The notes under the pieces were generated by a model. It did no database searches. It saw only the letters and a list, made by a program, of their open reading frames with translations, and was not told where the DNA came from. A stretch of DNA of 19,252 nucleotides. It comes from Antrodiella citrinella. Lineage: Eukaryota > Basidiomycota > Agaricomycetes > Polyporales > Steccherinaceae. Below are positions 2,801-18,999 of the stretch, in pieces (position 1 is the stretch's first letter; each line of letters opens with the position of its first letter). Position numbers and translations under genes: made by a program. The DNA lies in the NCBI GenBank assembly GCA_004802725.1, contig SGPM01000436.1, positions 1 through 19,252 on the forward strand, given 5' to 3'.

Positions 2801-4440
2801 CTACTTCATCAAGGCCATATACACCCTGGAGAGGGTGTCCAAAGGCCACTTGAACCTAGAAACCCGCACCTGCACGTCGCGTTTTGCGAGCACATCCACT
2901 ACCTCCCTGAGCGCGTAGCACCTTACGGGCTGATGAAGAACGGGCTGTCGGCAAATCGGACAGGGTGGAAGGAGCAACACGTTCCACATCATCTTCCACA
3001 ACCTCTCACAGCATTTCTGGCAGAAGGTGTGCCCACAAGTAAGGCTAGCACAAAAAGTCAGCTTTATAGCGGGCAGCAGGGTAGCGGGCATGCTCACATT
3101 CGTGGGGATGCGTAAGTTTCCAAGCACATGGCGCATTGAAGGCCTAAGAGCATCTTCTGGTCCCTTGCGGTCAAGGTCTCCAGACCGGACTTCGCCGCTT
3201 GTAGCTCCTGCTGGATGCTGTCGAGTTTTCCCTGGGCGCCTTGAGGCTTGTTATGGACGTACTGAGAGACGGGTACGTTAGGTGGGCAAAGCGGGTGACT
3301 AAAGCTCACCTACAACAAGACGCAGCCTCAGGTTGTCCTTGTCCAACCCTTTGAACTCCCCAGGGGTGTAAGGACGAGGGTCCATGCTTCTGAGCATCTC
3401 ATCGATGCTGGGAAGGTGTATGTCATCGTCGGGTAGCTCAGCAGGAAACTCGGGGAAAGTGGTGGCCGCCTCGTTCTGGTCGCTCCTTCAGTAAACTGCG
3501 AAGTCAAACGGCTTCCCAACTCACCGTACCAGTGTTCGATGTGCAGGGAGGGGCACAGCTCCGTTGGGTGGGTGTCCGCCTTGCGCGCGTGGCAGAACTG
3601 GACGGTGCGCACGACGTTGAACTTGGCGTACCCGTTGAAGCGGCACTGTGTTCTGACGACGAGCCGTATGGCGCTCAGCCACTCGGCATGGAGGCGAGTG
3701 TCTGCAGTGATGGGTTTCCCTCGAAGCTGGAAAGTCTCACATTTCTTTCCGTTGCTGTCTCCGAGCTCCGCAATGTACTGGATGGTTAGGGAGCTGGTAG
3801 CAATAGCCACTCGCTCGCATGCTGACCCTTCGACCCCTTCTTGCCCGAGGATGTTGTCGACGATCCACCGGAAGTTGTCGTCCTTCCAAAGCTTGGTCTT
3901 GACCTCGACGATCATCTTAGTTTCGATGCCTGGTACAACAAGCTTGAGGGCGGGGTCTGCTCCGATGTCGGTGATCACCCAAGACTGCAGGGATTGGTCG
4001 TATGGGACAAAGCTGAAGACTAGATCTTTCGCGATAGCGAAAGTCTGGAACCAAAGAAGATAATCCTTGATGTTCAGGCCTACTCCCGTCAAAATGAGAG
4101 ACCACGGTTTGGCGTACGCCTGCAAAGCGTCGGTGACCGTCTTGTGGGTGTGGTTGTAGCGAGTCTCCAGTAGGTAGACCGTGGGTTCATACTGGGTCTC
4201 CTCGGCAATCTTGAGACCCACGACGAAGTCTCGAATGTGGTTGTGGATCTCGGGGTGCTTGTTCATGAACATGGGTCCCGCGCCGAGAGGCATCACTGCG
4301 ATGGCCGTAAAGTTGTTGGCTATCGTGTCGCGTTGGCTGTCAGTTATTGCCGTGATGAGGTCGTTAAACGATATGACAATTCGCTCGTACGTCGTGACGA
4401 AGAAGGGCGTTGTGTTGCCTTGCGGCTTGTTGGGAGGCAT
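2801..4440 (-). CDS. Coiled-coil and C-terminal RING-finger protein (putative E3 ubiquitin ligase), four exons
   Basis: Minus-strand exons are 4440-3530, about 3485-3314, 3261-3098 and 3044-2801. Together they total 1,491 nt, or 496 residues, in one frame. The first 300 residues form a domain I do not recognise, starting MPPNKPQGNTTPFFVTTYER. A short coiled coil (LDSIQQELQAAKSGLETL) comes just before a C3HC4 RING: CAMC, then 11 residues, CGH, TFC, QKC, 16 residues, CPIC. All eight zinc ligands are present, and the RING is split by the last intron between the second and third ligands. C3HC4 RINGs usually recruit an E2 and transfer ubiquitin; the substrate is unknown. The exon 1/exon 2 junction is uncertain: the GTGAGT donor at 3524 gives a frame clash, while the GTACGG donor at 3529 keeps the frame open. 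A further 5' exon from ATG 4736 (MSLEVPGS...), spliced through a 105-nt intron, would add a Pro/Ser-rich N-terminus in frame. Confidence 0.7.
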
Positions 4441-4893
4441 GTCTCCGCTTTGCGTCTAATGTTTGTTTGTGGCGACGACAATGGGGAAGAGCGCAAATGT
4501 TGCGAGGTGAATCGCAGGGGTGGAGGGTCTTCGGTATCCAAGGGTGTACGACCACGACCATGCGTCTCCTCGGATCTGCACTTGCTGGAGAATGAAGAGC
4601 TTGTTCTGCCGGTTCAGCTGGATGCCCAGGTTTGCCTGTGTGGGGCTCGGGGGATGGAGACCGCGACAGGATACTCTCAGCGGGGGGAGAACTGGGAGGC
4701 AGGGTAAGATCACTCCCTGGAACCTCGAGACTCATGTTGATTTTTGTCTGAGAAGGTTCGTAGGGAAGATGATTTACAAGCGTAGATACATGTGTACACA
4801 GCATACTCTCGAGCAGGAGTTCCAAGGCGCTTACTCATCCTCCTCTCTTCCTAGCCAACCTCCTATTTTCTTTGCCTCCGCCAAGCTCACGTC
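4441..4893. promoter_or_regulatory. Divergent intergenic region between the RING gene and the helicase gene
   Basis: The minus-strand RING gene starts at 4440 and the plus-strand helicase starts at 4894, so this 453-bp stretch should hold both promoters. A pyrimidine-rich run at about 4838-4882 (CCTCCTCTCTTCC and following) lies just before the helicase ATG, as is common at fungal starts. The minus strand also has an open frame from ATG 4736 that could be a 5' exon of the RING gene. I see no clear TATA box or operator. Confidence 0.4.
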
Positions 4894-5018
4894 ATGCCGC
4901 CCAAACCATGCGACTCCAATGCTCAAAAATGGACTGCACCATGGATGTCCAAGAAGACCCCCAAACGACCAAAACTCTTCGAGGACGAGTTGAAGACACT
5001 CGCTCGCATGCGCGAGAC
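4894..5018 (+). pseudogene. 5' fragment of the RecQ-like helicase gene, cut off by the transposon
   Basis: From ATG 4894 the frame encodes a short basic N-terminus beginning MPPKPCDSNAQKWTAPWMSK and ending LKTLARMRET at the insertion point. Reading on into the transposon adds 11 codons and meets TGA at 5050-5052, so this fragment alone would make about 52 residues. The segment 5011-5018 (CGCGAGAC) is repeated at 12000-12007. Splicing out the element and one copy continues the frame as RMRE-TYCWDDDPREF, so this is the true start of the gene whose body lies at 12008-13827. It has no helicase motif of its own. The assignment rests on the exact duplication and frame match. Confidence 0.85.
5011..5018 (+). 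repeat. Target-site duplication, left copy (8 bp)
   Basis: CGCGAGAC directly precedes the left terminal repeat and is identical to 12000-12007. The bases beyond differ (G before the left copy, T before the right copy), so the duplication is exactly 8 bp. This length is usual for hAT, P and KDZ/Zisupton DNA transposons. Confidence 0.93.
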
Positions 5019-5051
5019 AGGACCCCTGAAAACCCTGCCAAATGCCACTTG
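5019..5051 (+). repeat. Left terminal inverted repeat (33 bp)
   Basis: It begins AGGACCCCTGAAAACCCTGC and ends GCCACTTG. All 33 bases match the reverse complement of 11967-11999, and similarity stops abruptly after base 5051. P elements have inverted repeats of comparable length (31 bp). Confidence 0.95.
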
Positions 5052-5070
5052 ATTTTCGAAAAAATCTCGT

Positions 5071-5163
5071 GTCCGGACAGGCTCCGCAGGAGCCCGATTT
5101 TTGTCCGAAAATCTCAAGTGGCATGACCGAAATCGATTTTTGTCCGGACAGATTTCAAGTGGC
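5071..5163 (+). repeat. Left subterminal repeat modules (GTCCGGAC / CAAGTGGC)
   Basis: GTCCGGAC palindromes occur at 5071-5078 and 5142-5149, and CAAGTGGC octamers at 5115-5122 and 5156-5163. The last two modules read ATTTTTGTCCG...CAAGTGGC, the same orientation as those at the right end. The octamer is also the inner part of the terminal repeat. Repeated motifs just inside transposon ends are typical transposase binding sites; that role is inferred. Confidence 0.75.
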
Positions 5164-5387
5164 CTCAAAAAGCGGAATTTCTGGTCCAAAATGCTCAAAA
5201 AGCGTTGCGAATGGACGCATAACATCGTAGACACACATTGTGATAGTAGATATGGACGAATAATGATATAGGTACACAATATTAGCATTTTCGAACGCAG
5301 TACTAGCTAGCGCGGTCTAGCGCCCGTCACCGAGACATAGAAACATGCAGTGAGCACTAGCGAGAAGCCCTGCGACCCTACGAAGCC
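5164..5387. other. Left subterminal non-coding DNA, downstream of the transposase stop
   Basis: This stretch separates the subterminal repeats from the transposase stop codon at 5388-5390 on the minus strand. It should hold the 3' untranslated region and poly(A) site of that gene. AT-rich sequence at about 5240-5285 (TAATGATATAGG and nearby) could be the cleavage region. I see no open frame of interest. Confidence 0.4.
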
Positions 5388-8300
5388 CTAATAATCATGT
5401 TCCGTGTCGACCACCCTCTTCCTGCCACGAAATAGCGTCGTCGCGCGGTCGAAAGACTCGATGTTGGATGACAGAGAGAGGTACAAGTCGAAATCAACCT
5501 CGGTCATCTTGTATGTTCTTCGCGCAGCAGTCTCTTGAAGACTGGTGTCAGTGGGCGTTGGTTTCGAAGACAGAAGCGTGAGGAACATGTGCGAGGGTAT
5601 GTGAGCGAAATGTTTTGTTTGAAGCAGGGATGTCGAGTCCGGTATGCTGCTGAAGAGCTTTGTATAGCGGGCGGTGCACTGGAAGGTTTGTACCGAGATA
5701 TACGACAGTGCGCTGACGTTGGTAGACTGCGTGACTGCCTGGTGCTTTCCATTGAGAAAGCCAGACTTTGAATACATTGTGAGAACTGCAACGAAAGGTG
5801 TTAAGTCCGAATCCAAGTAACAAAATTGGCCGAACAAGATTACTTACTGTGACCCAGCATGAGGCCCGACGTTGTCCATACAATCCCAAAGTCCCCCACT
5901 GTGACGGGGCGTACTTTCGTTACACGGGCGTTGCAGATATCAAGTTGATGGGGTACTTGTGCTTTGGTGAACAGTGTGACACGTCGTTTCGACGCCTGAA
6001 GAAGTCAAAGTCAGTGATACATCGAGAAGCTAAAGGCGGGTCAACGTACACTTGTAGCAGAATCAGTGGCAGCAAGAACAGCGTTCCCGCTATTGCCTGT
6101 AGTGAGGGTCGTACCCGACTCTTGACCGCCTGCAGCCGATTTGATCCAACGTAATCCTCTGCCCGCCCCTGTGGTAGCAGCGGTGTCCTGATGCTCCTTG
6201 AGAACAGCGTGAAGCTTATGGATCAGCTCACGGCGTGCAGTAAGCTTCCCGTTAGCTGAGTCGTCCGAGCTCCGGGTGCGAGCACTGCTCTCAGCGTGAC
6301 GTGTTTGGTGTTCACGTCGAAGGGCAACAAGTCCGGAGAAGTCCAGGCTACCTTCATGAGGACTGTTGAAAGCGAATTGCTTGGGTGCTTCGTCCGGGAG
6401 ATTGAGCCTGAGCGGCGGAAGTTTCAGCAACTGCAGAGTCTCCATAATGTTGTCGCTATCTTCTGCAAACGTACGAGCGAGATCGGCTTCATCAAAATCC
6501 GGAAGGGATTGACTGTCGTAAGGTCAATGATGGTGCACTCTGAGGGGTAGCTGTGTATAGTACGCACATGGTCATGATATCGTCGGCCTGCAAAGCCATG
6601 GCTGCACAGGCTACGCGAGTGAGTGTGTCGTCCTGAGCCAATCTGAGTTCAGAATAGGACTCCGCCTCATCCATTGCTGCCTGGAGATCGTCTGCGTCAT
6701 TTTCTCTCTGTGTCTCGCATAGTAGTGCTACTGCGTCTGAGTACAGGTCGACAGTGTCTTCAACGAAATCCGTGGGGTGGTACCAGACGTCGATCGAAGG
6801 CAATGTGGGTCGGAAGATTGTTTGTGGGTTGCGCCGAACCACACGAAGCTGCTTGGGTGCAATCCCAAGGAGCAGTAGAAGACTGTCCGCCTCTGCCGCA
6901 GCACGCTCAGCGATGGAGGGTATGTCGCATTGCAGAGGAAATGAAGAGAGGGCAGTGAGGTCCATGTCACACATATCAAAATACGTGTGGTTGTATCCGG
7001 CAGCTGTAGCACGTGAATCTGACAGTCGTGAACACAGAACGGCTTCACGTAGCTTGACCGTGAGCTTGTTCACCATGTGATGATAATCAAGCATGGTGAA
7101 GTCAGCGACAATCTGGCGGGATTCACCAAATACATGTTCACAGGGCTCGCTGGAGTGCAACCACGGGAGGAGAGGGTAGATATTTCCGTCCTTGATGTGG
7201 TCACGGTAGATGATGACGAGTGAGATATAACCCTCAATAAGGATCTTGAGGATGTCGACAGCTTCGCGCGAAAGGAAGTACTGGTCCTTCCTGTAGCCAG
7301 CGCAATCCAAGAAAGCTTCCCATGAGTCGATGAAGTAGCGGGCGCGTAGAACGAGAACAAGCCGTTCGGAGTGATCCAAGTGACGATTTTGAAGCGAGTC
7401 AATGAGATCACCGAATACGAACAAGTACGCAATCGCTCCCACCCAGTCGGGATGTTCAGAGCAGAGGAAACTAAGTGTCTCAGCAGAGAAGAGGCGGCAA
7501 GCCACATTGTCATCTTGTCGATCTACCTTATCAACGTCTCGGTGGTACAGCGGACTTCCGTCATCCATGGCGAGCTGGCGAATGTGGCTGTAGAACATGA
7601 TGAAGTTGACAAAGTTGAGGAGACGGGCACCGGAAAACAGATTGTTCCTCAGGGTTTTCAAGCAATGCTTTGAGTCTTGAATCATCGCAATGGGATAGCC
7701 ACGTATGACTGGTATCTTGATATGAACTGGGGGTATCCCGGGGTTTAGGTTGTCGATCGTATAGTCGATGACCCTCTCCGCCGTTTTCACGAGTAGGTGT
7801 TGCACGTTCCGCTCCACCGTTGTTCCATCGCACGCATACGAGGATACAGCAATTTTGCGATCCAAGAGACCATGGAGGATAGGAGTAAGATAACTGAGGA
7901 GTGTATCGGCGTTGTTGATATCGGAGATAGGTCGAGCAGCGACAATGATAGGCGGAACCTTTGGAAGAGGGACCTGTAGACACCAGAGACGGACCTTGGT
8001 TGCCTTTGTTGCTCGGGCCTCCTCGAGTATAGCCTTGAACTAGTCAGGATCTGTAACACGCAGCGGCCCATCTGTACCTCCGACCGCAAAGTGGCAGTTC
8101 TCGTCGGCGTCCCAATACAGCCGGAAGGTTGCAAACAACTTGGTGTCGTCGCAGCTAAGACCAACTGGTCCATTATACTTCAAAGCCGTGAGATACTCCG
8201 TAACACGATCAAAAGTCCGGTGGCATGTGGTCATGGGAAATTTTGGTTTCCGTGCTTCCTTCTGTCTGAACGAGAGTCAGTACAGTTACGTGAGACTGTC

Positions 8301-10223
8301 TCAGGTTGTACTCACCGGAAACTGCGCTGACTGCGACTTGGAATTTGTTGAGTGAGGTATCGGTAGGCACGAGGACTATGAATGTTGACGATCTCCATGA
8401 ATTCATCGTAGGCAGGAGGATACTGGAAGCCTTGCATGCCCTTACTGTTTTCGGCCCGTTTAACCGTGACCTTCGTGACCATAGTTGTGATGAGACCTCA
8501 AGATCATCGTATTTGCCGTCCAAGACACCTTGTGCATAACGGATACACGGCGTTGATTTCAAAGGCTGCGAGGCAAAATCAGCTTGATATTCAGATGCAC
8601 ATGAACTCCGTACATACCGCTTCCACCAGTTTCCGTAAGCCTTTGACCTTGGCGAACATGGTACCATACGCCTCGTTTTGATATTTCTTATTGAGAAACT
8701 TGAGTTCTCCTCCTTTGGCTCTTTAGCCTTAAGAACGGTACGAAATCCATTGATATGCAAGACGCTGCGGCAGTTGGTGCAGGACAGAACACGGTCTGAG
8801 CTAGTAAGGAACGATTGTCTTCCGCACCGAGGTCAGCCACGGAGACTAGGTCTGAGCCGCCCAACCGGTGCATGTTGTTGCTGCGACCTTGGCAGACGCT
8901 GGAAAAGACGCGGCGATTTTCCTTGTCCACTCGCCACCGCCAGTCATGCATCTGCGCATCTTGAACTTGCTGTTGTTCCGCTTTGGTCAAGACATGGTAC
9001 TCAGCCTTGAATAGCCTATCTGCGTATACCTGAAACTGAGAACCACCTCCTCCCATTGTTGGTGTTCTAGCAGCATACGTGGGAACGCGTTTGTCGTCAT
9101 GACCGGTGAGACCAGGACAAGGCCAAGATGTGGAGTCCTGCACATTTGGTACTAGGTGTGCGTGGTTTGCTTTTTTAGTATCAGAGGGTACGGAAGCTGA
9201 TTCCTTCGAGAAACCAAACTTCGCCCACATCCCGGTGGCCGCCTGAGAGTCAGCTTTCTTGAATTTGGCTGAGACGAGCCTCTTGCCTTTCGTCGAAGCC
9301 TTGGTTGGACCAGTGCATGTTTGGAGGTGCGTCTTGTATCGCGTAGTATCGTATGGTTCACGACATTTGAGCCATTTGTCACAGCCCGTGTGCCGGATTT
9401 CACGAGGATTATCAGGTTTGAAGGATGCTGACGGATTCAGCCCAAGGACCTTCTTCTTCCAACGTGACATCTTCTCTTCATTGACGACAAATGTCCCACT
9501 CTCCAGTGCCTGGCGTGCTGCTCGAGATGCAACAGCACTTCTGCTTACACCCATTCCATCGCCATCATTGCCGTCGGCAGTCCTCCGCTGCTTCTTCTTT
9601 GGTGCTTTACCACTTGCGACCGAGTCTGAGTCACTACCAGAGACATCAGGTGAGTGTCGTCTCCGGAGAGACGGACTGTGCTTTCTGACAATATCCGTTA
9701 CGGCTTGCTTCAGTGCCAGCCAGCTTCGTGTGGATCTCTTCGAACCCCCCGAACCCGTAGTGCCATGTTCTGACTGTGCATCGCGATCATTCGAAGATAT
9801 ATCCGCGGTGCTAGAGGCAAGATGATCCCCCGACATAGACGATACCTCCGAGAATACCGCGCCCGGGCCAGTGTCTATGCCCATCACGAAGTCCGAGTCT
9901 GAATTGTTCTGGTCACTTATGACACTCCTGCTTGTCATGTCGTCGTTGGAAGACCTAGAAGAGGTGCGAGCCATGCTGGCAGTAGCCTCCGGATCGACAA
10001 TTGGATAGCTTGGATTGCTGTCTTGCGGGCTCGAGGGAGGAAGATGATCACGTCCAGCAAGTGACAGTGCAATCGTCAGCTTCTGCAATTCCGGCAGCGG
10101 ATTCAAAAGGTTCGACAGAGACGCCTTTGACGTGTACGGTCTAATCCCTGGCGTAGGAACCCCCTCAGGCTGAATGACTGGTTGAACGTCCTCCTTCCTT
10201 CCAACACGTTGAAGATAGTTGAA
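5388..10223 (-). pseudogene. Zinc-finger / RNase H-fold (DDE-type) transposase, damaged
   Basis: Exons on the minus strand are 10223 to about 8870, about 8808-8618, 8575-8316, 8265-6568, 6512-6050, 5995-5848 and 5785-5388. The first part is Ser/Asp-rich with a basic KKKQRR nuclear signal and a C2HC-like finger (C...C...H...C within HTGCDKW to TCTG). A CTNC pair follows. The catalytic core shows SCDDTKL (Asp at 8145-8150), SYACDGTT (Asp at 7827-7829) and SSEPCEHVFGESR (Glu at 7137-7139), the expected D...D...E order, with a long helical insert before the Glu as in P and hAT transposases. I recall this as a very common but unnamed Agaricomycete family. Three lesions are visible: a one-base loss at about 8699-8706, a frame change at about 8490-8500, and an in-frame TAG at 8040-8042. 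The frames on both sides of each keep family-like sequence. The intron near 8870-8808 has two possible donors. No functional transposase can be made without frame repair. Confidence 0.78.
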
Positions 10224-10281
10224 CTACAAACAGCCTCCGATTTCAGCGCTCGACTTGTCGTCGGTTCGATGTAGTACGTAC

Positions 10282-11624
10282 ATGATGTGTCACAATAAGA
10301 CTGAACATTTTGACTCGCTGAATCTCTCTCTCTTTCTCATTCCACAGCGGGTCCATGAATATCGTGTGCGCTATCGTGTTCAAAGCGATAATCCCGCAAG
10401 AAAAGCTAAGTCCGTGGTCAAGGCTATCACCAAGGAGCTTGAAGGGTCCGCGGAATCGTGCTCGCAACCATTGTTGAAGGGCTCGCATGAACACGGTAGG
10501 TGGTGCGGCTCGCGGTGCAAAAGAGTCGCCTAACCCAAGTTGTCAGCAATCCGAGTCCGTAGTAAGATCAAGAACTTGTGCTCACCGTACGCGATTGTTG
10601 ATGACTTAAAATCTATCTCGCAGGCAATCCAATGGTTTTCGTTGACGAAAACGGGCAAGAACAGTTGAGCAATGGCCGCTGAACTCTTGATGCGGGTCTC
10701 ATACTCTAACATGACTGTGGGTAGGTTCGTGTTCGTGTTCTTGCCATAATCTTGTTTCGCCGATAACATGATAGCATCAAACAGCCCTACTGTCCCAATC
10801 ACGACAGACTTTGCATGGGATGGTAATCTTTCCAATCGTCCAAGCAACCCTCCTAATACCGCCTCCATCACGGATGCCCCAATCCAGTTGTCACCGAGGA
10901 GCTGAGCCAGTCGAGGGGATTGAAGATGTTCCACCTGCATAGGGCCGACACCTTGGATGCGGGTGTTCCAGCCTATCGCCTTGAATGTTTCGACGGCGTG
11001 AACGAGTTCGTTGGAGAACGGTACACCTTCGTCAGCGGACATAGCAGCCCATTGAACAACATCCTCCACGTGAGCGATGTGTGGGCATCCAAGCAAGTTC
11101 GTGAGCCACTTCAACCCAGTTCTCCACTCTCCTTTAATCTTTCTGACACGACCAATATCCAGCCTGAACTGTAGTACCCACAGCGGGAGACGCTCCGACG
11201 ATGTGCTCTCATTGAAGCGCGGGTCCACAATGAATTGATTTCCGTCAAACCAGGCCTGTCCAAATCCGGTCTTGAGGTTCTCGAGAAAAGCAAGTGGTGG
11301 GACCGGCTGACCCTTGAGGATATGACAGAGGTCTGTAGGTGGTGAGAGGAAGGGGGGATCTTTACTGTACCATTCAGCGATGTCCGTGAAGATTAGAGCG
11401 GATGAGGATGGTGGTAAGGGGAGGTCGAGGAGCTGTGACACTGGTAGGTTGTCCGGTGGAAGGAGACACTCTGCGAGGACTAGAGGAATGGCGAGGATAT
11501 TTTTGCGAGCGTCGTGTATATAATTAGGGACAGTTGACTTCGGTGAAGGGAATCGCTTTTGCTGCCCAATCCAATCCTCGGGGACAAATATTAACTCGAG
11601 GTCGTCACGAGCCTGGCTGGCCAT
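10282..11624 (-). CDS. Ulp1-like (C48) cysteine protease module, apparently the N-terminus of the transposase gene
   Basis: Exon 1 runs from ATG 11624 to 10586 and exon 2 from 10529 to 10282. The start MASQARDDLELIFVPEDWIG is chosen as the first ATG in frame; the frame is open further upstream without an ATG. The C-terminal third carries the Ulp1/SENP catalytic pattern: NENHWIACEID (His at 10632-10634), IAYGDS (Asp at 10525-10527, just after the intron) and SFSCGII (Cys at 10396-10398). The oxyanion glutamine usually six residues before the Cys appears to be His. Ulp1 enzymes cleave SUMO or similar modifiers. The next 58-nt intron (10281-10224) has clean GTACGT...TTGTAG ends and leads in frame, with no stop, into the zinc-finger/transposase exon. 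If that intron is retained, translation ends 14 codons later at TGA 10243-10245. The same transcript could thus make a free protease or a protease-transposase fusion. No frame lesion is seen in this part. Confidence 0.75.
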
Positions 11625-11825
11625 AGCTGGAGTGACGAGTCTGAGCTGTGAGTGACTGAAGTTCGTTAGAGCGATCGGTCGTACAAAAAAGACTGAGGGG
11701 TTGCATTTGCGAGACCACAAAAAGAGATGTACAAAAATGTAACAACGAGATTTGAACCGAGGACCTTAGCTACAAAATAAGTACAGAGCATCCACCATAC
11801 CAACTGCACCACCGAGGTCCATGTA
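11625..11825. promoter_or_regulatory. Presumed promoter/leader of the transposon gene
   Basis: The 200 bp upstream of the minus-strand start at 11624 must hold the promoter of the Ulp1-transposase gene, since only the subterminal repeats and inverted repeat lie beyond. It includes the tRNA-like segment at 11741-11820. I see no firm TATA box. The role is inferred from position alone. Confidence 0.35.
11741..11820 (-). other. tRNA-like relic with Pol III A-box and B-box look-alikes
   Basis: On the minus strand the stretch starts GGACCTCGG. It has an A-box-like TGGTGCAGTTGGT and, about 45 nt later, a B-box-like GGTTCAAATC, the spacing found in tRNA genes. A CTTA/TAAG stem closes a loop where TGT sits in the anticodon position. 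The acceptor, D and T stems do not pair, so a functional tRNA is unlikely. It may be a decayed tRNA or tRNA-derived repeat captured by the element. Confidence 0.35.
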
Positions 11826-11963
11826 CGGACAGCTCAAGTGGCTACCATGGTCAGTAAACCAGTCATGTGCGGACAATTCAAGTGACCATCAGGCCAAAAT
11901 AGTCATTTTTTGTTGGAATATCAAGTGACTATGAGGCTCGAAAACCTCATTTTTCGTCCGGAC
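11826..11963 (+). repeat. Right subterminal repeat modules (CGGACA / CAAGTG(G/A)C)
   Basis: CAAGTGGC lies at 11835-11842, CAAGTGAC at 11879-11886 and 11922-11929, and a last copy at 11967-11974 is inside the terminal repeat. They are spaced about 43-45 bp apart. Each is preceded by a GTCCGGAC-like core (CGGACA at 11826 and 11870, a degenerate GTTGGA at 11911, perfect GTCCGGAC at 11956-11963). Regular spacing of about four helical turns suggests cooperative transposase binding; that is inference. Confidence 0.75.
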
Positions 11964-11966
11964 TAC

Positions 11967-11999
11967 CAAGTGGCATTTGGCAGGGTTTTCAGGGGTCCT
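11967..11999 (-). repeat. Right terminal inverted repeat (33 bp)
   Basis: This is a perfect reverse complement of 5019-5051 and ends AGGGGTCCT at 11999, next to the target duplication. Read on the plus strand it is open in the helicase frame, so an ATG at 11931 inside the element runs through it into the helicase remnant. Confidence 0.95.
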
Positions 12000-12007
12000 C
12001 GCGAGAC
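12000..12007 (+). repeat. Target-site duplication, right copy (8 bp)
   Basis: CGCGAGAC, identical to 5011-5018. It lies within a helicase codon series (Arg-Glu-Thr), so the duplication is host coding sequence. Confidence 0.93.
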
Positions 12008-13827
12008 CTACTGTTGGGACGACGACCCTCGTGAATTCCAATTAGCTGCCGTGCAAGCTCACCTAGAAGGCACAGATATGATTATCCAAGCCCCGACCGG
12101 TTCTGGAAAGACAGCAATTGGGGCAGGACCACACCTTTGGCCCACAAGTAAAGGCAAAATTACGATCATGGTTTCGCCGCTACTTGCTCCGGAAGAAGAA
12201 ATGGTGAGTCTGTGGAATATAGTGTACTGTCTTGTGCTCATCACGTGAATGGGTGCAAACTTTTCGTAACCAGTTCGGACTCACGGCTATTGCAGTGAAC
12301 AGTAGCAACGGCGGCTGCCTCTTATGCTGTTGCGCGAGTAAGTCCCATTTGCATAGCGGTCAATATTGACACTCATCCTATAGTAGTTACTCACAAAAGA
12401 TTACGATATACTTCTCATATCTCCCGAAATGCTCCAGTCAACACAATTCGTTGACCGCATCCTTCGTAAATCCCAGTTCACCTCAAAGGTTTTGTCCATG
12501 GTTGTAGACGAGGCTCACGTGGCGTCTCACTGGGGCGCTGAGTTTCGCAAGGAAATATGGGACGCTAGGGGCAGTGCGCGCATTCCTACCCAGAGGTACT
12601 CTGGTTATTGCCATGACAGCCACACTCACCGCACGAGTGCGCCGTGACCTTCACGTGAAACTCCAATTCACGAAAGGTACCCGCAAGTTTCTGAACGTCG
12701 GTAACGACCGACCTAATGTATCTATTGCTGTCCATGCATTTCAGCATCCACAGAACTCGTTCGCCGACTTGGGTTTCGTCATCCCTATAGGCGTAGAAAA
12801 TTCTGCAGACATTCCCAAGACAATGGTGTACTTGGATAAGATTCAGGATGGCAGCAAAGTTATTGACCACCTACGAGCTCTCCTTGTCAAGCGCAACCTG
12901 ACCATGGCAGCCACAGAAGACGCTGATCACCTTATCCGACCTTTCAACGCTACTATGTCTTCTGAATATCGCGAAGCAGCTATGGACGCGGTCCGAAATG
13001 GAAAGCTGCGTATCATGATCTGTACAGATGCGGCAGGCATGGTGAGTGTCTCGAATCATGATCGAACGCGTGGTACTATATGTACAACAGCTAGTAACGT
13101 GATCCAGGGATGCGACATACCAGATATTGACGTAGTCGTACAGTGGAAGCTGCCGAAAACACTCTCAAGCTGGATTCAGCGAGCTGGATGTGTTGCACGT
13201 GGACGAGGCAGGTCGGGGATTGCTGTGTTGCTAGTGGAGCGCGCTGCGTACTCACCAGACAAAGCAAAACCTCCGGGTGAGTCTGCAGGTGCTACCTCCA
13301 CTGGCAAGGCAACCGTCTCCGCAAACAAGTCTTGCTATGGTCGTGGCAGGAAGTCCCAGAAAACACAAGGCGGTGGCTCAGGCAGTGCTAATGCTGCCAA
13401 GGAGATCAAGGAGTATGCGAAGGCACATGGTCTTGAACGTGGAGGCACCAAGCAGAACGACGAGATCCCAACCGGAAAACAGCCGACCCTGGATGTTGAG
13501 GCTTCAGACAAGGGCCTGTCTGCATTCGTCCAAGTACTGAATGTCGTAGGAACGTCTGGGAGCGGGCATTTGTCTGCGAGGATATACGACGAGCTGGTGT
13601 GTGCGGCCTCAGGCTCAGTTCTCTTTTCAAACACCGCTCACAAGATACGCCCTTTGATAGTACCTTCGGTACCCTGCTGTGATATTTGCGAACCGTCGCT
13701 CTTCGATCGTGTACGGCCAGGTCTGAATCTGAAGACCACGATTGCTCCAGCTGAACCAAAGTTGCCCGCGCGGGGACAGGTTGTGAGTCTAAGGAGAGCG
13801 AGGCACGAGCGTCCCGTAGGATCGTGA
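12000..13827 (+). pseudogene. RecQ-like superfamily 2 DNA helicase, main body, disrupted
   Basis: Exons are 12000-12203, 12274-12337, 12387-13041 and 13108-13827. Helicase motifs appear in order: FQLAAVQAHLEG (motif 0-like), APTGSGKT (motif I, 12090-12113), VVDEAHVASHWG (DEAH motif II, 12508-12519), AMTATLTA (motif III), MVYLDKIQDG (motif IV area), ICTDAAGMGCDIPDIDVV (motif V) and QRAGCVARGRGR (motif VI, 13177-13212). A CCDICEPSLFDR motif typical of the Agaricomycete members follows near the C-terminus. Such enzymes unwind DNA 3' to 5'; in fungi many RecQ-like copies lie near chromosome ends. Apart from the transposon in exon 1, there are two frame breaks. The 64-nt exon 12274-12337 is one base out of phase with the next exon, and an extra base lies at about 12551-12557, after which the frame resumes as YGTLGAVRAFLPRG. 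The gene is therefore almost surely non-functional. The C-terminal end may be shorter than in relatives. Confidence 0.85.
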
Positions 13828-14089
13828 TGAGGAGGAAAAGGGTACTATATCTCACGGTATCTTCGGAACCACCACAAGTTGGTAAAATGGGCTCCTAAGC
13901 CAATGAGGAGCCAGGATTCTCGATCAGCGCTTGAATTTTGGCTGGGGATCCGAACTTCTGGTGGTTACGAAGATACGATGGGATATGTATACGCGTCGAT
14001 TTCAACAAACATCGTGGGACAAATCACATGACTTACAATCAACAGACTTCGGTTGCCGATATCACCTCCTGACCACTCTACACTTTGCC

Positions 14090-16718
14090 ATGGGAGGCCC
14101 ACGCACCAACAAGGGTACTTTTACCCGCAGTGCAATGACCAAGGCTCGTCGAAACCAACGCGAAAGGCAAAAGCGAGTCAGTACAGGCAAGAAGTCAGGT
14201 AATCAAGGGAAATTCCATGGCGCGCGGTTCGACTTTCTCGTTGGCCTCGAAGACGAATACAAGACGGCTCAGAAGAACAAAACTTTACCGACCTTCTGGT
14301 ATTCTCTATTCGCCGAGTATTGGAAACTATTTCACTGGTCCATCCCCATCGATCTTGAGCCAGAACCCACCGATCATCCCGACGACGACGATTTGACCGA
14401 CGAGCAAGAAGCCCAGAAGAAGGACGTGATTACGAAGACCCAAAATGTATGTCAGTTTTTATTGTTCGCATTTTTGATATCTTACTCACGATATCGCAGA
14501 GTATCAAGGCGTGGTTTCGTTGGCGCTGCAACAACTACAAAGTCAAGTCAAAAGAGGTTTGGGCCCCTTTCCTTCAGTCCCTCGCACGCAAATCCGAGGT
14601 CCGGGTCCCTCCTCGACAACTTGCTATTTGGCAGTACTATATGTCCCACGACCCCGGTGACATCGCCAGGGAATTCAATCGCACATGGCCAGATGCTGGT
14701 CTGCCAAAGTCACAGCAGATAGGCTTTCGTGCTGCGATTGCCAGACGTCTTTTCGAGGGGCTTCCACTCGAGGACAAAGCTGCGTACGAGGCTCGTGCCA
14801 AGACCGAACACGCGGACGCGCTCAAACAGTATCAAGAAGCATTGGAGGAAACTGAGCTAGCGACGAGGACTGTGGAGGACGTGGAACAGTAAGTGTACTA
14901 CCTCTGACGTCTGCATAACACACTCACATCCTATTCAGTGCCCGAGAACACATTTCCGAGGTTGTGGAGCCGCTGCTGGGGCTTATTGCCGAATATACTG
15001 AGACATCTGCATGTCTCATTATCGGCGCGCCCCCTTCAGAAGGTAGTAGCAAGTTCTATGTCAAGGCGATAAATGCTGGGCTCTCAGTCAAGGGGGAGAC
15101 GTGGAATCACTCGGACCCTGCGAGCTTCACAACAGCGGTGAGGAGTTTTACGTGGTATTTGCAGAAGACAAGTACGTACATCATGTAAAAAGTACATTCA
15201 TTTTGTCTCTAATTTATTCGTATTTACAGAGAACTCAAATGAGCCGGGGCCAAGCTCGTCTGAACATGCACAAGCACCCTCTCGTAAGACTCGTCAGAAG
15301 AGGAAACAGCAAGCAGACCACAGCGACAGCGACGACGACAACGACGACAAAGAGGAGGAGGAAGAAGACAAGGAGGAAGACGAGGAGGAAGACGAGGAGG
15401 AAGACGAAGAAGAAGAGGAGGACACGGAAGCAGAGGACGCTGAAGCAGAGGACGCGGAAGCAGAGGACGAAGAAGCAGAGGACGCGGAAGCAGAGGACGA
15501 AGAAGCAGAGGACGAAGAAGCAGAGGACGAAGAAGAGAGAGGGAAGGATGAGGTTGAAAGCAGCACCTCCAAACACTGTGGCCGCACGCGTGCCTCCAAG
15601 AGGCTTTCGACCGCCGCCCAGGACTCCCTCACGATCGATTCGGTCGAGGGACTTGGTCCTCACTTGCGCAGTGAAATCCAGGTGTTGTCCAAGCCTCAGC
15701 AGCAAAAGCGGCTGAAATGGCTCTATGGCCAGACCCCGTTCGACCTTGAGCGGGAGGAGAACATGGCGCGCATCCGCTCCCTCCGTAACACTATCCCTGG
15801 CATGAGTATCGACCATGTCCGCAAACAGGTCGAAGCCAGTCTTACTGCCAAGGCGGGCCAAACCAGTGCTAACCCATCTTCTCCGCCACCTCCTGCTCAC
15901 GCCCGTACTCCTGTGCAATCCCCGCCTCCACCTCCGCGTTCGCCACCTCCACTCTCACCACCTCCGCGTTCGCCGCCACCTGCTACAACGTCGCAAGGGT
16001 CACCTCCGCGCCACTCACGAGAGCCGGCACCTACTGGCCCGAGCATACCTGAGCCCCGCGAGGCAACACCGTCTGATGACATAGTCCTCTCTGTGGATCG
16101 TGAAGGGTGGCCTGATTGGCTCGAGGAGGCCTACGAGTATATGGACTCATTTGCGTATGGATCCAAGTTCAAGTTGTGCCTCATCAGGTGGACGATGCTT
16201 GAGCGTTCATATGGCTTCGCAACTTCGGTATGTGCCATGATTCTTCATCGCTTCATGCGAACTCACTAATGTTTTCGTAGAATCGTGGTCTCGGTACGAC
16301 TCATCGCCCTCCGCAAGTGGCGCATTGGACAAGGGTCCTCCGTCGCGAGTACAACGCCATACCAGACATCGCGATCGGTGCCCAATTTATTCAGTCGTGG
16401 TGGGACTGGTGGAATGGCCTCCAACCCAATTGGAGGGTGTTCGGGTCTGACACCTTCCCGGTGATTGGAGGTACCGGTTATTGGACGACGTTGAAGAAAC
16501 CCGGCAAGAATGGGCTCCTCATCGTCCTCCTCACCCTCATTTGGTGGCGCAATCATTTCAATCATTGGGAGGACCCCGATTGGGTGTATGCAGTGAATGA
16601 TGTGGCTTGGGTCCTTGGGGAGCTCTGCGCAGACAACGAGAAACAGCTGTCGGAGGCCGCGAACAATCAGGAGGACGAGGAGGATGGCCCACTGCGGAAG
16701 AAGAAGCGCGTTCATTAA
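14090..16718 (+). CDS. Acidic and proline-rich protein of an unnamed Agaricomycete family, five exons
   Basis: Exons are 14090-14446, 14500-14888, 14939-15171, 15230-16227 and 16281-16718. They join to 2,415 nt, or 804 residues, with no break. I chose ATG 14090 (MGGPRTNKGTFTR) because the basic start AMTKARRNQRERQKR follows; an in-frame ATG lies upstream at about 13988. The N-terminal region has WYSLFAEYWKLFHW and an acidic patch, then a Trp-rich block (SIKAWFRWRCNNY) and an alpha-helical, HMG-like stretch ending in EDKAAYEARAKTEHADAL. Exon 4 encodes a nearly pure Asp/Glu/Ala run of about 65 residues with seven EAED(A/E) repeats, then a SPPPPPRSPPP linker. The C-terminal domain is Trp-rich (WWDWWNGLQPNWR, then PGKNGLL, WWRNHF and DVAWVLGEL) and ends in a basic KKKRVH nuclear-type signal. 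The composition suggests a nuclear chromatin- or DNA-associated protein. I know no function for the family. The intact frame suggests it is maintained. Confidence 0.72.
15427..15531 (+). repeat. Seven 15-bp tandem repeats coding EAED(A/E)
   Basis: The unit GAAGCAGAGGACG plus two bases (CT, CG or AA) repeats seven times without interruption, in frame. It lies inside a longer purine-rich run of GAGGAAGACGAG from about 15345. Such arrays change length by slippage, so the acidic tract may vary between strains. Confidence 0.9.
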
Positions 16719-17001
16719 GTGTATTTTCCGTATTGCTTGCTTGTTTTCAGCCTACCTGTTTATAATGTAGATACATTGTCTTGATCGATTTGTATACACT
16801 GCAGGCGAGTACATATTGTACGAACGATGGACAAAAATCTGCAAAACATTCGAAAGCGCCCATTGACTTGGGCTCAGGCTCAGCCCCAGTGAAAACTAAC
16901 TCTTCGCCCAACCTTACGTAACCTGATCCATCTTATCTGAGGATGGAGACGGCTGGGCGCAGACATTCGGGTCGCGAAAGACGAGGGTCTTGGCTCATTC
17001 T
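16719..17001. other. 3' flank of the acidic/proline-rich gene
   Basis: The stop codon at 16716-16718 is followed by a T-rich stretch with TATAATGTAG at about 16762, suited to 3' end formation. After that I see no motif or open frame I can support. Confidence 0.4.
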
Positions 17002-18496
17002 CACCCGTCCCCACTCATCTTCGTCAAGAAAGGCTGCAGATACGGTAGGTCTGAGTAAGATGGTACATCTGTGCTCGTCCCACCACATCTGCGCATATCC
17101 ACAACACATTCGCGTCCCGGTACCCCGTCCGACTCATCTGCACCTGGCTGGACCCCTCCCCGCCGGTCCTCATATACCCCTCGCCACCCTGCTCCAGCTG
17201 CTCCCAGCTGCTCCCATCCCTTCCCGTGTTGCTTCGTCTGACTGATCTTTCCCCAGCCACTCTGGTCCACGTGTATCCTCTGTCCGATACCCCCTCTCGC
17301 GATCGTTTTCACAGTGTCGTGCACGTTCTGTATATCCATATGAAAGGATCATTAGAAGCCTGCAGTTGTCGTAGATAACGGACTTACTGATCTTCACACC
17401 GCCTGCCGCTCTCACAACGTCGCACACGCTCTGTAGATATGAAAAAAATGTCATTAGCAGTTGTTATGAACGAGGGGAAATACATACCAGTTCTCATCTG
17501 CTTTCGAACCGCGTGTACATTTCAATGAAGAGAATTTGTTCATCAGCGCGTTGTGTGTGAGAACATCCCTGTTACGACATACCTTTTTTCACGTTCCCAG
17601 CTCCGCGAAAACAACAAAACCGTGTCAGCAAAGTATCTGCGTCGAATCCATAGCATGATAACGTACCACCCTTTCGTTGACTGTAATTTTATCCCAGTAA
17701 GTCAGCGGCCAAGCTGCCTTCATTCTTCCGACACCAGTCATCAGCGCAGCGGTGTCTTCAAAGACGAATGAAAGGATGAAATAACAAACCACATAACGTA
17801 CCTCGAAGGTTGACAATTAGGAAGCGGCTTCGTGACCTTCCCCTTCTTGGCGATAGCGTTCACGTCGTCAGTCATTGGAACTCCCTTCGACGTGGAAGCA
17901 GCGGGTGTATCTTCCTCAGTCCCGGGACTGGGTGTTGCCTTCGCAGAATCAGTTGTCGTCAGACGTGCGGCTGCAGAAGTGCTGCTCTTAGATGGGCGTA
18001 CTGAATCATGAATGACATCATAAAGTCCTGCGTAACGCGTCGGCCCAAGTAACACACCTACAACCTTGTGCAAAACGCGTGAGTCAATGCAAGCCGAGAT
18101 AAATGAGTACGACACTTACTATATGCGAACTAGACTTAACACTTGCACGAAAAACCTTGCTCGAAGAGTAGTTAGATGGGTATATGCGCGCGAAAAGACC
18201 ACAAATGGATCACAAATACTTACCTGAGGCTGCATGTGATCGACTCGAGATGTAACCTAGTAGAGCGGACGCGAAAGAGAACGCGACGAAACAGTCAACA
18301 TGCGTGGGAGGAGTAAACAGGTTCGCTTTCGAACATCCGGCGCGACGTGAGCACATACGGTATGTCGGTGAAATCAAGATGAAAATCGGACTCACCGTCA
18401 ACTTGAATCACGCAATGCAAGATCTAGGCAAAGCTAGCGACGTCAATGTAGGGGATCATCAGGCTGATAGGCAGAATAACTTTAAGACGAGGATGC
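17002..18496 (-). other. Possible minus-strand intron-rich gene or gene relic, unresolved
   Basis: Several minus-strand GTAAGT/GTATGT...TACAG pairs suggest short exons, for example donors at about 18222, 17491 and 17387. An open stretch of about 100 codons at 18045-17813 reads VLLGPTRYAGLYDVIHDSV followed by a Ser/Thr/Ala-rich tail. The minus strand has a CT-rich box at about 18600-18545, a TTTTATG sequence and an ATG at 18496 (MHPRLKVILPISLMIPYIDV). No splice set I tried gives one continuous frame. I do not recognise the product. It may be a decayed gene, a non-coding RNA, or a real gene I cannot assemble by eye. Confidence 0.3.
17322..17460 (-). repeat. Diverged tandem duplication of an intron-plus-exon unit
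   Basis: Two adjacent minus-strand segments share the order ACAACTGC, CTAATGA, CATAT, TACAG, then (A/G)CGTG..CGAC..TGTGA. Translated in matching frame they read ERVRRCES and ERARHCEN. Both have a branch-point-like CTAATGA and a 3' splice site at the same place. The phases of the two copies do not fit each other, so they cannot both be spliced in one frame as drawn. Confidence 0.45.
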
Positions 18497-18609
18497 ATTG
18501 CTAGGGCATAAAAGGATGCTGGACAGGTGTACAGTACGTCTCAGGCAAGGGGAGGTGGTGGGGGGAGGAAAAGAGTTAGAGGAACGAGAAACAGAAAGGC
18601 GGCGGTCTT

Positions 18610-18999
18610 ATGTATGTGCACCGAGTCGATGGGTGCAGGGCACGGGGGATGATTGTGTCGACGTCGAAGGGTCGGCGGTTCGACGAGTTGACAGGAGAAA
18701 AAGAAGCAGGATCCAACCCTTCCGGATTGTCGTCTGTCCTGCTCTTGAGGCCTGAGGCTGCACACATACCAGCGTGGATACTGAGCTCTTCCCGTCGGCT
18801 TCTTGCAGATACACGTGGATTATTAGCCCAGCTGGACGAAGAGTTAATTTTCACTGGGCCTCAGGAGTGGCCGAGAATGCTAGCGTGGCAAATTATGCGT
18901 GGGCAGCCTGAAAAGAAGGGGTCTAGATTGCTCACGTGGAACCAGCGTGGGGCCAAGAGGTCCACAAGAGATTCGAGAAGCGCCATGAAAATGTATTAA
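18610..18999 (+). other. 129-codon open frame of doubtful coding status
   Basis: It starts MYVHRVDGCRARGMIVSTSK, and the rest is a mixed hydrophilic sequence with no domain I recognise. It opposes the presumed promoter of the unresolved minus-strand locus. It may be a chance frame; the nearby DNA is otherwise empty. Confidence 0.15.

Follow-up and report, generated by a model that had tools for sequence, protein, structure and literature searches.

Our study analysed a window of 19,252 nucleotides, contig C375 of the Antrodiella citrinella genome (Steccherinaceae, Polyporales; 30.0 Mb in 602 contigs), in which an exon of a helicase gene is split by an inserted DNA element of 6,981 bp (5019-11999) with 8 bp duplicated at the insertion point. 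The element carries a single broken gene with a predicted transposase core and, in front of it, a predicted protease domain (Table 1). Its duplication, CGCGAGAC, abuts perfect 33-bp terminal inverted repeats (TIRs) on both sides. No other perfect inverted pair in the window is as long; the longest in each of 20 shuffled windows measured 13-18 bp, and the chance expectation for perfect 33-bp inverted pairs is about 3e-12. When the flanks are joined over one CGCGAGAC, they read as one continuous helicase frame (...LARMRETYCWDDDPREFQ...), and an exon of a paralogue on contig C75 runs through the insertion point without interruption, with 66 % identity to the joined peptide of 107 residues over its residues 12-107. 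The initial annotation, made from the letters of the window, had claimed a DNA transposon with exact ends and an 8-bp duplication in a helicase exon, with a frame running across the excised junction, and had proposed a search for an empty site; our results bear out all of these points.

With the element in place, the helicase frame meets a stop 10 residues past MRET, and the gene is therefore likely to have been inactivated by the insertion. The part of the exon beyond the element includes the sequence TGSGKT, which we take to be a nucleotide-binding motif. A 560-bp copy of the 5' end of the helicase was also seen on contig C30 (locus L058, minus strand 4902-4343), 97 % identical to window positions 4460-5018. 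This copy lacks the element; it has a single CGCGAGAC and CT as at the empty site, and then passes into unrelated sequence, breaking at most 2 bp from the insertion point.

Table 1. Features of the inserted element and of the interrupted helicase gene, in window coordinates
Feature	Position	Strand	Basis
Left target-site duplication CGCGAGAC	5011..5018	.	Sequence; directly adjoins left end
Left 33-bp TIR, AGGACCCC...CCACTTG	5019..5051	.	100 % complementary to 11967-11999
Right 33-bp TIR	11967..11999	.	100 % complementary to 5019-5051
Right target-site duplication CGCGAGAC	12000..12007	.	Sequence; directly adjoins right end
Subterminal palindrome GTCCGGAC, first at left end	5071..5078	.	Motif count
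Subterminal GTCCGGAC, second at left end	5142..5149	.	Motif count
Subterminal GTCCGGAC, right end	11956..11963	.	Motif count
Left subterminal CAAGTGGC repeats, candidate transposase-binding sites	5115-5122, 5156-5163	+	Motif count
Right subterminal CAAGTGRC repeats, spaced 43-44 bp	11835-11842, 11879-11886, 11922-11929	+	Motif count
Single interrupted gene, broken copy: predicted Ulp1/SENP-type protease, finger and helix-turn-helix (HTH) region, P-type transposase core, C-terminal extension	5388..11624	-	Reading frames, co-linear relatives
Exon 1: most of Ulp1-type domain, catalytic His	10586..11624	-	
Exon 2: catalytic Asp and Cys (SFSCGI) of Ulp1-type domain	10282..10529	-	
Exon 3: low-complexity linker and Cys/His-containing region, putative DNA-binding finger	8889..10223	-	
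P-element-type HTH region	8312..8497	-	PF12017 E 0.0032
P-type RNase H core with insertion domain; in-frame stop at 8040-8042	6495..8264	-	
Host helicase exon, pre-insertion part	4894..5018	+	Frame reading, paralogue comparison
Host helicase exon, post-insertion part, with TGSGKT	12008..12203	+	Frame reading, paralogue comparison
Host helicase, C-terminal helicase domain	12508..13827	+	PF00271 E 2.1e-10

Further copies were sought by pattern and sequence searches of the contigs, and the resulting counts are lower bounds. A TIR pattern allowing up to three mismatches gave 33 matches in the 30-Mb genome, including the two ends in the window, and its reversed control gave 0; two narrower patterns gave 2 further places. 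Duplications were counted for TIRs with a partner within 2 kb, plus the window, and partnerless TIRs, several of them near contig ends (e.g. C433, C104, C583:171 and C197), were left out. Eight of the 17 paired copies are flanked by exact 8-bp duplications that all differ from one another, as the initial annotation had expected of other copies; three more have one mismatch and one has two, while the remaining five have no duplication, so that this expectation was borne out in part only. By chance, duplications with at most one mismatch would be expected at about 0.007 of 17 pairs. The five copies without a duplication would suit a chance or segmental arrangement, in which recombination between inverted repeats had brought the ends together with no transposon involved, but the exact ends, the eight loci with distinct exact duplications and the empty paralogous site leave that explanation with almost no credence.

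Apart from the element in the window, the paired copies are all short (371 to 901 bp). Several TIR subtypes are present, and among the places found only C188 and C433 closely share the subtype of the window. Neither the core piece 6492-8039 nor the protease exon had a match in the genome search outside the window, and our study thus recognized one gene-bearing copy together with short relatives that have related ends. A 901-bp element with related ends was seen at both C66:15021-15921 and C132:45602-46502, with the same flanks in inverted order. These are likely to be one locus assembled twice, and both were counted among the five copies without a duplication.

The gene was delineated from reading frames and from co-linear relatives, namely Mycena protein P0129 (over 11612-6552) and Pleurotus protein P0126 (over 11603-5394), with the later introns read by eye. 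Its core contains one in-frame stop, and the frame is broken at least twice between about 8800 and 8470, a stretch through which the relatives continue without room for an intron. The element had been described as structurally complete, which holds for its ends and not for its gene. The A. citrinella database protein EUX98_g8318 is 97 % identical to the transposase core, and its gene model spans the later part of the gene only.

The core is predicted to adopt the fold of the P element transposase, an RNase H core with a helical insertion domain, and the predicted-fold match to P stands far above all others. Structural alignments to P and THAP9 gave 13-15 % identity. The putative catalytic acids are conserved among aligned relatives (D39 in 41/42, D40 in 40/42, D146 in 55/55 and E376 in 54/54); those of the P element transposase are D230, D303 and E531 (PMC7776569). 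The P-element HTH family PF12017 was found in 9 of 44 sequences scanned at E ≤ 0.1, two of them above the cut-off, and the HTH piece of the window itself scored 18.3 bits, below the cut-off of 23. The transposase family is abundant, with 457 protein matches among proteins of about 325-1,033 residues, and nearly all names among the 120 listed of these are 'hypothetical protein'. It had been taken for a family without a named superfamily, and the element for a type specimen from which one could be described. The predicted fold, the PF12017 matches and the earlier naming of P elements in rust fungi (PMC3164196) argue otherwise, and the element is most likely a mushroom P element.

The 8-bp duplication agrees with the P superfamily and is a length common to hAT. 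As hAT transposons also have an RNase H core with a helical insertion, an assignment to hAT was considered and then rejected on its fold match, which is weaker than that to P, and we regard such an assignment as very improbable. In a Pfam scan of the core, no match to a hAT transposase or dimerisation profile was obtained. Kyakuja-Dileera-Zisupton (KDZ) elements make 8-bp duplications, and Pfam contains a KDZ profile. A KDZ element was a candidate from host and duplication length, and was rejected for want of a match to that profile in the same scan (E ≤ 10), which is not a direct comparison with KDZ; a new superfamily was rejected on the predicted fold, the match to P being far above the rest. 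Either would be favoured by the core matching no Pfam family at all, and in the mushroom Marasmius oreades the dominant DNA elements include KDZ (PMC8290104), yet we hold this pair of options to be hardly more credible than hAT.

The subterminal DNA of the element contains repeats at both ends. The window as a whole has three copies of the palindrome GTCCGGAC, each of them within about 131 bp of the element ends. If the TIRs are left aside, the subterminal DNA of both ends (334 bp) has five copies of CAAGTGRC, where 2,000 shuffles gave 0.0165 on average; two others lie deeper in the element and another two in other parts of the window, and the copies at the right end, including the one in the TIR, are spaced 43-45 bp apart. 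GTCCGGAC is also the target motif of the Drosophila P element (PMC3276498, table). The eight exact duplications agree with it at 4.0 of the 8 positions on average (background 2.04; 0 of 20,000 draws). One copy was inserted in exactly GTCCGGAC, and leaving that copy out gave a mean of 3.43 (p 0.004).

The front domain of the gene, which the initial annotation overlooked, is predicted to adopt the Ulp1/SENP (C48) protease fold. The His, Asp and Cys triad and a Gln are all four present in 7/7 relatives, of which four (P0123, P0126, P0127 and P0129) scored above the Pfam cut-off for Peptidase_C48 and three (P0124, P0125 and P0128) had no match. The same protease-plus-transposase layout was found in gene models of other Agaricomycetes. 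Protease and transposase could instead be two adjacent genes within one P element, with the fused proteins arising as gene-prediction errors. Every fusion was read from a gene model or a genomic frame, the protease is absent from several relatives (P0004, P0006, P0012 and P0037) and a low-complexity linker separates the two parts, as two genes would have it. Against this, exons 1-3 of the window are joined by GT-AG introns (introns 1 and 2) with no stop between the protease and the finger region, and the fused models come from four named genera and keep the same order. Two separate genes thus appear unlikely, and the fused gene remains our preferred reading.

Several observations weigh against a P superfamily transposon with a fused protease. 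The superfamily call draws mainly on the predicted fold, together with a weak HTH match: the core had no sequence match to the solved P element transposase, as a single sequence or as a 55-row profile, and no Pfam family matches it at E ≤ 10. No THAP domain was matched in the nine gene pieces scanned, nor did scans of the relatives, many of them without the N-terminal part, show a match to THAP, a domain said to be restricted to animals (PMC7776569). Five of the 17 paired copies have no duplication, including the closest relative of the window's ends, the 603-bp copy on C188 with a left end about 90 % identical; that a collapse of copies in the assembly at C188 and C433 lies behind this is only a guess. 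The motif signal is weak over the 11 copies with at most two mismatches that are left once the perfect one is excluded (mean 2.82, p 0.027). Nor does the target motif single out P: the hAT element hobo is listed with GTNCGNAC in the same table, and the motif therefore supports P without testing it against hAT. Duplications of 7 bp are recorded for 1360, an element of the P group (PMC3276498). The protease in the window retains His, Asp and Cys and is without the Gln that the relatives have, and it scored 19.8 bits for Peptidase_C48, just under the cut-off of 20.7. The set of fusions is small, at six proteins (P0123-P0127 and P0129) compared to 457 transposase matches; the whole core is present in P0129 alone, P0123 and P0125 are partial, P0126 is without the middle and P0124 and P0127 show just the first 90-100 core residues. 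A single transcript over protease and transposase is an inference from gene models.

Taken together, the evidence suggests, with a probability that we put at roughly 85 %, that the element is a cut-and-paste transposon of the P superfamily whose single broken gene is predicted to encode a P-type transposase with an N-terminal Ulp1/SENP-type SUMO protease. In the mechanism that we propose, the finger and HTH regions of the transposase would recognize the CAAGTGRC arrays and the TIRs, and the enzyme would excise the element and join it to the target 8 bp apart, using an RNase H active site of D39/D40, D146 and E376. By analogy with Drosophila, GTP is probably held in the insertion domain. The short non-coding copies would be mobilized in trans. 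The protease may act on the transposase itself, or else on host proteins of silencing or repair located at the ends of the transposon, and free them of SUMO or a related tag. A further proposal, which we regard as doubtful, is that of a mushroom P lineage in which another finger replaces the animal THAP domain and a built-in de-SUMOylase licenses the movement of the element; if true, this would be the first case of a P element that is itself equipped to counter host control.

Other features were seen elsewhere in the window. A second inverted-repeat element lies at about 16879-18864, with 32-nt arms that are 88 % complementary and 1,922 nt apart, a possible 5-bp duplication (CTCAG) and a left end with 10 genome matches, itself included. 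A 34-nt inverted repeat (13847-13880 / 13953-13986, 85 % complementary) is situated just downstream of the open reading frame (ORF) for the helicase C-terminal domain. A 375-aa ORF contains a long acidic repeat (GAG/GAC-rich, 15298-15560) and has a weak BUD22 match under the cut-off, and a RING-finger-like ORF on the minus strand (2801-3250) falls under Pfam cut-offs.

If correct, the assignment places an abundant mushroom transposase family in a transposon superfamily that is among the best studied, and broadens the known range of sizes and domain compositions of P elements. The fusion of a protease to a P transposase would add to the Ulp1 cases in Ginger, Mutator-like and Crypton elements, and would make the idea that SUMO removal aids transposition testable in one protein with one active-site change. 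The AGGACCC...CCACTTG ends, together with the 8-bp duplications, may allow short copies to be recognized in related genomes. No P element with a Ulp1 domain was found among the titles and abstract openings listed in searches of an open-access library, outside which Repbase and subscription papers lie. The main text of the rust P-element paper has no occurrence of 'Ulp1' (PMC3164196), nor does that of a 2025 study of TET-bearing fungal transposons, which also has none of 'P superfamily' (PMC12730594). A survey of Laccaria transposons likewise gave no occurrence of 'P superfamily' (PMC3411680), and a fungus-wide co-option screen none of six terms for the families discussed here (PMC10799480).

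Ulp1 (C48) proteases have been described in Ginger1 and Mutator-like transposons, with a proposed role in transposition (PMC2836005). The A. citrinella element resembles these in that a DNA transposon carries the protease, but their transposases are different, and the protease is C-terminal in Ginger1 and N-terminal here. The oomycete elements CryptonF and CryptonS are also mobile elements with a C48 peptidase, although they are tyrosine recombinase elements that have the peptidase in addition to the recombinase (PMC3212892). The VTD deubiquitinases found in Helitrons and in Agaricomycetes are a different protease class (PMC9741609). KDZ and Plavaka are, like this element, DNA transposons of Agaricomycetes (PMC8290104, PMC12730594), but they use other transposases, and no profile match to these was found for the A. 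citrinella core. In 2011, rust fungi were reported to harbour P superfamily elements that make 8-bp duplications, described there as previously unknown in Dikarya (PMC3164196). Those elements, P-1_PSt, P-1_MLP and P-2_MLP (Repbase), share with ours the Basidiomycota, the duplication length and, if our assignment holds, the superfamily, and belong to another subphylum; this comparison is one of descriptions and not of sequences. Compared to the Drosophila P element, the A. citrinella element is larger (7.0 kb vs 2.9 kb), has no THAP domain found, bears a predicted protease at its front and resides in a mushroom. However, it resembles Drosophila P and animal THAP9 in its 8-bp duplications, subterminal repeats and HTH, in an RNase H core with a helical insertion, which is predicted here, in a target preference near GTCCGGAC and in its shorter non-autonomous copies, and its perfect TIRs of 33 bp compare closely to the 31 bp of Drosophila P (PMC7776569, PMC3276498).

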